From: Candidatus Thorarchaeota archaeon
GTDB lineage: Archaea > Asgardarchaeota > Thorarchaeia > Thorarchaeales > Thorarchaeaceae
Direction: 5' to 3'
Assembly (NCBI GenBank): GCA_029855935.1
Contig: JAGSHN010000005.1
Location: 124,001 to 188,000, forward strand
DNA length: 64,000 nucleotides
Shown: piece after piece, positions 12,295-62,887 of the stretch
How the letters are laid out: each line of letters opens with the position of its first letter
Numbering within the stretch: the first letter of the stretch is position 1
Translations under genes and position numbers: made by a program
Notes under the pieces: model-generated
Databases searched by the model: none
Told to the model about the DNA's origin: nothing
What the model saw: only the letters and a program-made list of their open reading frames with translations

Positions 12295-12395
12295 TGGCGG
12301 GCCAGGAGGGATTCGAACCCTCGACCAACAGGTGACTCCACTCCCGTATCGGGAACTTAAGAGCCTGTCGCTATACCTGGCTTAGCCACTGGCCC
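12295..12395 (-). tRNA. tRNA-Lys(CUU) with a 24-nt intron, CCA encoded
   Basis: Read on the minus strand from 12395: acceptor GGGCCAG/CTGGCCC, D stem GCTA/TAGC, anticodon stem ACAGG/CCTGT, T stem GAGGG/CCCTC with loop TTCGAAT, discriminator G and encoded CCA (12297-12295). The anticodon CTT follows U33. A 24-base intron at 12334-12357 sits at the canonical 37/38 position. The precursor folds into a regular bulge-helix-bulge: helix CTCT/GGAG, bulges TAA and TCA each cut after the second base, and a capping hairpin TCCCG/CGGGA. The spliced anticodon loop is CTCTTAA. Confidence 0.95.
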
Positions 12396-62380: not shown

Positions 62381-62496
62381 TGGCGCCGGGGGAGGGATTT
62401 GTCCCAAGTTGGCCACAGTCCAACTCGTTTGAACCCTCGCGTGCGGAGCACACCAACTTAGCAGGCTGGCTCCTTACCAGGCTAGGAAACCCCGGC
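62381..62496 (-). tRNA. tRNA-Ser(GCU) with a 30-nt intron in the T loop, CCA encoded
   Basis: Minus strand from 62496: acceptor GCCGGGG/CCCCGGC, D stem TCCT/AGGA, anticodon stem CCAGC/GTTGG with loop CTGCTAA (anticodon GCT), a long variable arm closed by GTGC/GCAC, and T stem GAGGG/CCCTC. The T loop should be TTCAAAT but is interrupted: TTCAA, then 30 bases (62399-62428), then AT. The insert forms an 8-bp stem (CGAGTTGG with CCAACTTG) and a GTTC/GGAC helix with AAA bulges cut after the second A, a relaxed bulge-helix-bulge. Discriminator G; CCA at 62383-62381. Confidence 0.9.
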
Positions 62497-62559: not shown

Positions 62560-62887
62560 GTCTATGAGGTGCAGCGGCCCCTTGGCCTCGAGCGTCCCTC
62601 GCCTTGGCGCGATCTCGCACCTTTCTCGGAGCGGCTACCTCCGAGGCTCCACCACTCCTCCTTAGGGCTGTTCCCGCCAGGGCCTGACCCGGTTCGGAGG
62701 TCTAAGCCAATCCCAGCAGTCCTACAACCGCCGTTATGGCCGTGGCAGACTTCGGAGACCGCCCGTCATGGTCTAGTGCGAGGGCGCACAAGGCTTGGGT
62801 TTCGCCCTCAGCCTCGGTTACTGGTCCCGGCTATTGCCATACCGGTCACAGGTCGCGGCAAACGACCCGACCCTACCCGCTGCAATA
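62560..62887 (-). ncRNA. Signal recognition particle (7S) RNA
   Basis: Minus strand. The 5' and 3' ends pair (TGCAGCGG at 62884-62877 with CCGCTGCA at 62577-62570). The Alu domain has a UGUGA (UGUNR motif, 62850-62846). The SRP54-binding helix 8 reads GGGTCAGGCCC-TGGC-GGGAACAGCC at 62690-62666. Helix 8 departs from the common form: the tetraloop is UGGC instead of GNAR and the 3' loop is AACAG instead of AGCAG. Ends are approximate; a TATA element lies at 62908-62915. Confidence 0.87.

Follow-up and report, generated by a model that had tools for sequence, protein, structure and literature searches.

Position 59/60, within the T loop, is among the listed sites of non-canonical introns in archaeal tRNAs (Yoshihisa 2014, PMC4090602, summarising Sugahara 2008 and Chan 2011), and the introns listed there come mainly from Crenarchaeota and Nanoarchaeota. 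In Thermoproteales, transposed introns that are near-identical across the tRNAs of one genome have been described (Fujishima 2010, as cited in PMC4090602). Among the Asgard archaea, abundant non-canonical tRNA introns have been reported from the Atabeyarchaeia and Freyarchaeia (Valentin-Alvarado et al. 2024, PMC11291895); T-loop positions, sizes and covariation are absent from the main text of that paper. On the enzyme side, cleavage of relaxed bulge-helix-bulge (BHB) substrates has been tied to a loop lysine and its basic neighbour (PMC6379350, PMC12397907), and the loop rule has been worded as lysine, then proline or valine, then a basic residue (PMC12397907). The roles ascribed to endonuclease residues below are taken from these two papers. 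The BHB models of tRNAscan-SE 2.0 were trained on introns of Crenarchaeota/Euryarchaeota and Thaumarchaeota, and the Asgard archaea are unmentioned in the paper (PMC8450103).

The locus described here shares with the published 59/60 introns (PMC4090602) its insertion site, the BHB signal, the class of endonuclease and the occurrence of several introns per genome. It differs in that the host is an Asgard archaeon, and in that the introns measure 29-31 nt and fall into two adjacent registers (58/59 and 59/60). With the Atabeyarchaeia and Freyarchaeia it has in common the phylum and the large number of introns at non-canonical positions, those lineages being other classes. Since both the 59/60 site and non-canonical Asgard introns have been published, the intron is of a known type and constitutes a further case of it; the narrow size rule and the apparent BHB introns in EF-1α are the more interesting by-products. 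No publication on the 30-nt rule or on the two registers was found in a literature search that covered few of the subscription journals. We consider it very probable that the locus is a functional tRNA-Ser(GCU) gene of a Thorarchaeota-like Asgard archaeon carrying a 30-nt BHB intron in its T loop, which would be cut out by the organism's own endonuclease and its exons joined by RtcB.

The window, the whole stretch of 64,000 nt that was analysed, belongs to an Asgard genome of 2.97 Mb in 32 contigs that is 97.3% complete. The gene lies on its minus strand, as do all the features of the tRNA described below, and runs from G1 at 62496 to the encoded CCA end at 62381; the initial annotation had given this span exactly and had left out the strand. 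Just upstream is the archaeal SRP RNA (62572..62882, minus strand; Rfam RF01857, 106 bits) and just downstream the gene for EF-1α (60864..~62174, minus strand), which was used to place the genome and to build a tree. A Thorarchaeota MAG (QMYR01000026.1) has an EF-1α 94% identical to this one, and most of the best genome matches are to Thorarchaeota.

Read 5' to 3' on the minus strand, the layout is GCCGGGG-TT-TCCT...AGGA-G-CCAGC-CTGCTAA-GTTGG-variable arm-GAGGG-TTCAAA-(30 nt)-T-CCCTC-CCCCGGC-G-CCA. The 5' exon (62428..62496) comprises the acceptor stem, the D arm, the anticodon arm (CUGCUAA), the variable arm, the 5' strand of the T stem (GAGGG) and the T-loop residues UUCAAA (positions 54-59). 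The 3' exon (62385..62397) supplies U60, the 3' strand of the T stem (CCCUC) and that of the acceptor stem (CCCCGGC), and is followed by the discriminator G73 and the encoded CCA (62381..62384), as read from the sequence. Between the exons lies the intron, CGAGUUGGACUGUGGCCAACUUGGGACAAA (62398..62427), which is exactly the 30 extra T-loop bases claimed beforehand. It occupies tRNA positions 59/60, or 58/59 if the cuts fall where the BHB predicts them; since CAAA stands at either end, the boundary could be shifted by up to 3-4 nt, and either cut leaves an identical product with the T loop UUCAAAU. With the 30 nt deleted, ARAGORN calls a tRNA-Ser(gct) with a complete class II cloverleaf and a GCU anticodon, and in the unspliced sequence it calls no tRNA. 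The intron-bearing gene was likewise missed by the ARAGORN and Rfam scans of the window and by a whole-genome Rfam tRNA search.

The insert can be modelled as an essentially canonical BHB, in which two AAA bulges flank a central helix of 4 bp and an inner helix of 8 bp follows. In the central helix G53, U54, U55 and C56 of the exon (62431..62434) pair with GGAC of the intron (62401..62404). It is flanked by a 5' AAA bulge (62428..62430) and a 3' AAA bulge (62398..62400), with the predicted splice site in each between the second and third A. The inner helix joins CGAGUUGG (62420..62427) to CCAACUUG (62405..62412). The arrangement looked for, two 3-nt bulges around a 4-bp helix of exon and intron, is thus present as AAA, GUUC:GGAC and AAA, and the hairpin with an AAA bulge on each side noticed earlier is borne out; the 12 BHB pairs in the exact register were matched 0 times when the insert was shuffled 200,000 times. 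RNAfold leaves the T stem intact, enclosing the 8-bp hairpin. Since G53 must quit the T stem, the BHB fold lies 2.4-3 kcal/mol above the fold of minimum energy. When G53 pairs with the intron the outer helix is one pair short, U60 and C61 being unpaired.

Further T-loop introns were sought with a finder that used the tRNA stems and the TTCRA motif alone, with no hairpin term. On 278 kb of shuffled sequence it had 0 hits, and it recovered several T-loop introns in this genome and in related ones. With a covariance model the survey was then widened to 47 genomes of the family and 196 of the phylum, and the sequences obtained were read and parsed. Because the model score fails to separate intron-bearing from intronless Ser tRNAs (the intronless Ser tRNA of genome G001 scores 84.8 bits), the presence of an intron was read from the sequence. 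Seven tRNAs of the genome carry T-loop introns: Ser(GCU), Leu(UAA), Arg(UCG), Thr(CGU), Tyr(GUA), Val(CAC) and Asn(GUU). These are alike in structure and length, and outside the BHB elements their sequences have nothing in common, which speaks against their being recent copies of one another and sets them apart from the transposed introns of Thermoproteales. Across the phylum 97 distinct T-loop-intron tRNA sequences were collected from at least eight Asgard families, 90 of them with introns of 29-31 nt (63 of 30 nt, 17 of 29 nt and 10 of 31 nt). The window intron belongs to this phylum-wide set of ~30-nt T-loop introns. The initial annotation had described T-loop introns as rare and mainly known from Thermoproteales-type archaea with heterodimeric-like endonucleases; the type of endonuclease was correct (see below), while neither the rarity nor the lineage held, given seven such introns in one Thorarchaeota-like Asgard genome and their wide distribution in the phylum.

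Introns at other sites were also seen. The anticodon-loop introns called by ARAGORN in the same genome are more variable in size (9-63 nt), and the tRNA-Lys(CUU) of the window (12298-12395, minus strand) has an ordinary anticodon-loop intron of 24 nt. Two arginine tRNAs encoded on contig C14 of the genome (21633-21764 and 205118-205248), Arg(UCU) and Arg(CCU), possess D-loop introns of ~29 nt in addition to anticodon-loop introns. Longer T-loop inserts, of 35-130 nt, occur in tRNAs adjacent to EF-1α at six loci of DPANN archaea (Woesearchaeota, Nanoarchaeota).

A single register for all introns was abandoned after counting revealed two. In 82 of the 97 the central helix involves exon positions 54-57 (59/60 splice) and in 15, the window intron among them, positions 53-56 (58/59 splice); a central helix of 3-4 bp fits one of the two registers in all but two of the 97. 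In the 54-57 register exon base 57 covaries with its partner in the intron (A-T 32, G-C 31, G-T wobble 3, A-C 0; Fisher p ~1e-15, a nominal value because the sequences are related). Among the 54 gapless introns of 30 nt, 91.4% of cells are paired as against 35-57% in slid controls, there are 284 double changes versus 92 in shuffles, and all eight pairs of the inner helix change on both sides. The support for compensatory change comes from these homologous introns in T loops across the phylum, the window intron itself being without an alignable orthologue. The survey set was chosen in part by a covariance model into which the inner helix is built; since the 16 introns recovered independently of it pair equally well (mean 8.75 of 10 pairs, against 8.8 in the rest), model selection is not the source of the signal.

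The genome contains two genes with the splicing endonuclease domain PF01974, on contigs C5 (in the region of 20800) and C14 (in the region of 203504). The C5 protein is nearest to the catalytic EndA of Aeropyrum pernix [3p1z; E 4e-47], aligned over nearly its whole length, and retains the catalytic Tyr/His/Lys. Its residues K51-P52-K53 align without gaps to K44-P45-R46 of A. pernix, the crenarchaea-specific loop. In the C14 protein the two endonuclease domains are present and the catalytic His is absent, as would be expected of a structural (β-like) subunit. Judged by these genes, the endonuclease is of the (αβ)2 type with the crenarchaeal specificity loop, for which a heterotetramer with a broad substrate range is predicted. 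The likeness to the (αβ)2 EndA of A. pernix (PDB 3p1z, 3ajv) extends to the K-P-K motif at K44-P45-R46, the Tyr/His/Lys and a non-catalytic second subunit; the putative enzyme described here differs in coming from an Asgard archaeon, an unexpected lineage for this type. A gene for the ligase RtcB was also found. The suggestion that the insert is compatible with a splicing endonuclease is therefore strengthened by its BHB geometry, by covariation in 54-97 homologous cases, by the sole copy of the gene, and by a matching endonuclease and RtcB; a survey of the genome, proposed in the initial annotation, did reveal genes for two subunits, one of them catalytic and bearing the crenarchaea-type loop.

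An insertion might instead have broken this copy, leaving a decayed pseudogene while another tRNA-Ser(GCU) decodes, and the failure of ARAGORN and Rfam to detect the gene as it stands speaks for this. BLAST of the spliced sequence against the genome matched only this locus, as two exons, and no second tRNA-Ser(GCU) was found in the 97.3%-complete genome by BLAST, by Rfam and tailored covariance models, or by ARAGORN on the recovered tRNA loci; an intact second copy had been named in the initial annotation among the observations that would speak against an intron in a working gene. AGC/AGT serine codons are present in six of six window genes checked. With this the sole tRNA-Ser(GCU) and AGY codons in use, the gene must work and the insert must be removed, so that splicing is almost certainly required. 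The exons are moreover undamaged, with a full acceptor stem and an encoded CCA, and the insert has BHB geometry and is matched by like inserts in six more tRNAs of the genome. Decay is for these reasons very improbable, and the single copy, the intact exons and the seven like-structured inserts in one genome likewise rule out an assembly error. The mature tRNA might also retain the insert as an extended T loop. The tRNA elbow needs an intact UUCRANN T loop, relatives have a plain one, and the rules of the splicing endonuclease are obeyed both by the ends of the insert and by exon base 57 in its covariation with the intron; retention is accordingly about as hard to credit as decay.

In the preferred reading, a functional gene whose intron is spliced, the pre-tRNA would fold into the T stem as outer helix, the 4-bp exon-intron helix and the 8-bp intron hairpin, set apart by the two AAA bulges. 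The (αβ)2 endonuclease, with its crenarchaea-specific loop and a presumed tolerance of non-canonical substrates, would cut inside both bulges; RtcB would ligate the exons to restore the normal UUCAAAU T loop, and the excised 30 nt would be discarded or circularised.

Three genomes of the same genus have a tRNA-Ser(GCU) with an uninterrupted T loop, its 5' exon 97-99% identical to that described here. In the EF-1α tree, whose placement of these relatives covers G001 and G002 (G003 is not placed), the genome is sister to the intronless G001 (support 0.99) and the intronless G002 lies outside. The intron could be ancestral in the genus and have been precisely lost in all three relatives, and it is true that such introns are common outside the genus: among 29 family genomes scored for a T-loop intron in Ser(GCU), 13 have one at 58-60, a single genome has it at 55/56, and it is absent from 15, of which some possess an anticodon-loop intron. 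The sequence and register of the window intron are, however, unlike those of introns in other genera, and on the EF-1α tree a single gain is more economical than two or more losses. Ancestry with loss is on these grounds rather unlikely, and the comparison suggests that the intron was probably gained recently in this lineage. T loops and the 3' halves of tRNAs are common targets of integrases. If the intron has selective value, it might lie in disrupting the tRNA 3' half, into which plasmids and viruses could otherwise integrate, the idea of Randau and Söll as it is cited in PMC3293823. The recurrence of introns at the same spot in many tRNAs of the phylum would agree with such a role; closely related genomes nevertheless manage without the Ser(GCU) intron, and a neutral, tolerated intron accounts for the data equally well, so that we think protection against integration an improbable explanation. 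In the genome with the intron at 55/56 (G014), the sequence across the intron reads GAGGGUU | AGGUUGG...CGAA | CAAAUCCCUC. Another presence/absence pair is offered by loci L099 and L072/L075, closely similar tRNA-Ser(GCU) genes which have an anticodon-loop intron in common and of which the T-loop intron is present or absent.

The phylum-wide set offers presence/absence pairs within a genus that are usable for testing the gain and loss of BHB introns. The locus also demonstrates that an essential tRNA can escape the standard tRNA finders in Asgard genomes, a group central to the question of eukaryote origin. It further links the abundance of introns with an endonuclease loop of crenarchaeal type, a link not documented for this lineage in the papers covered.

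In three Thorarchaeota genera (G005, G010 and G019) the EF-1α gene is interrupted between DFI and KNM by an in-frame insert of 30 nt that contains a TGA stop; the EF-1α gene of the window genome has no insert at this place. In G010 and G005 the insert folds as a UUCAU:GUGGA helix plus a hairpin, with 3-nt bulges. These inserts look like BHB introns of a protein gene, for which the introns of the cbf5 pre-mRNA in Crenarchaeota (Yokobori et al. 2009, PMC2738675) are a precedent; the gene and the lineage differ, the cbf5 introns being crenarchaeal and the suspected EF-1α introns lying in relatives of the window's genome. It is conceivable, and is offered here tentatively, that a phylum-wide class of ~30-nt BHB introns repeatedly enters the T loops of numerous tRNAs, and protein mRNAs such as that of EF-1α, turns over within genera and is held in check by a crenarchaea-type endonuclease of broad specificity; its spread may use RNA, by reverse splicing into UUCR-like targets. 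A genome of another Asgard family (G088) has a 33-nt EF-1α insert with two stops in the P-loop (HIDHG|STM), the BHB fold of which is less clear and which is a possible second protein-gene intron.
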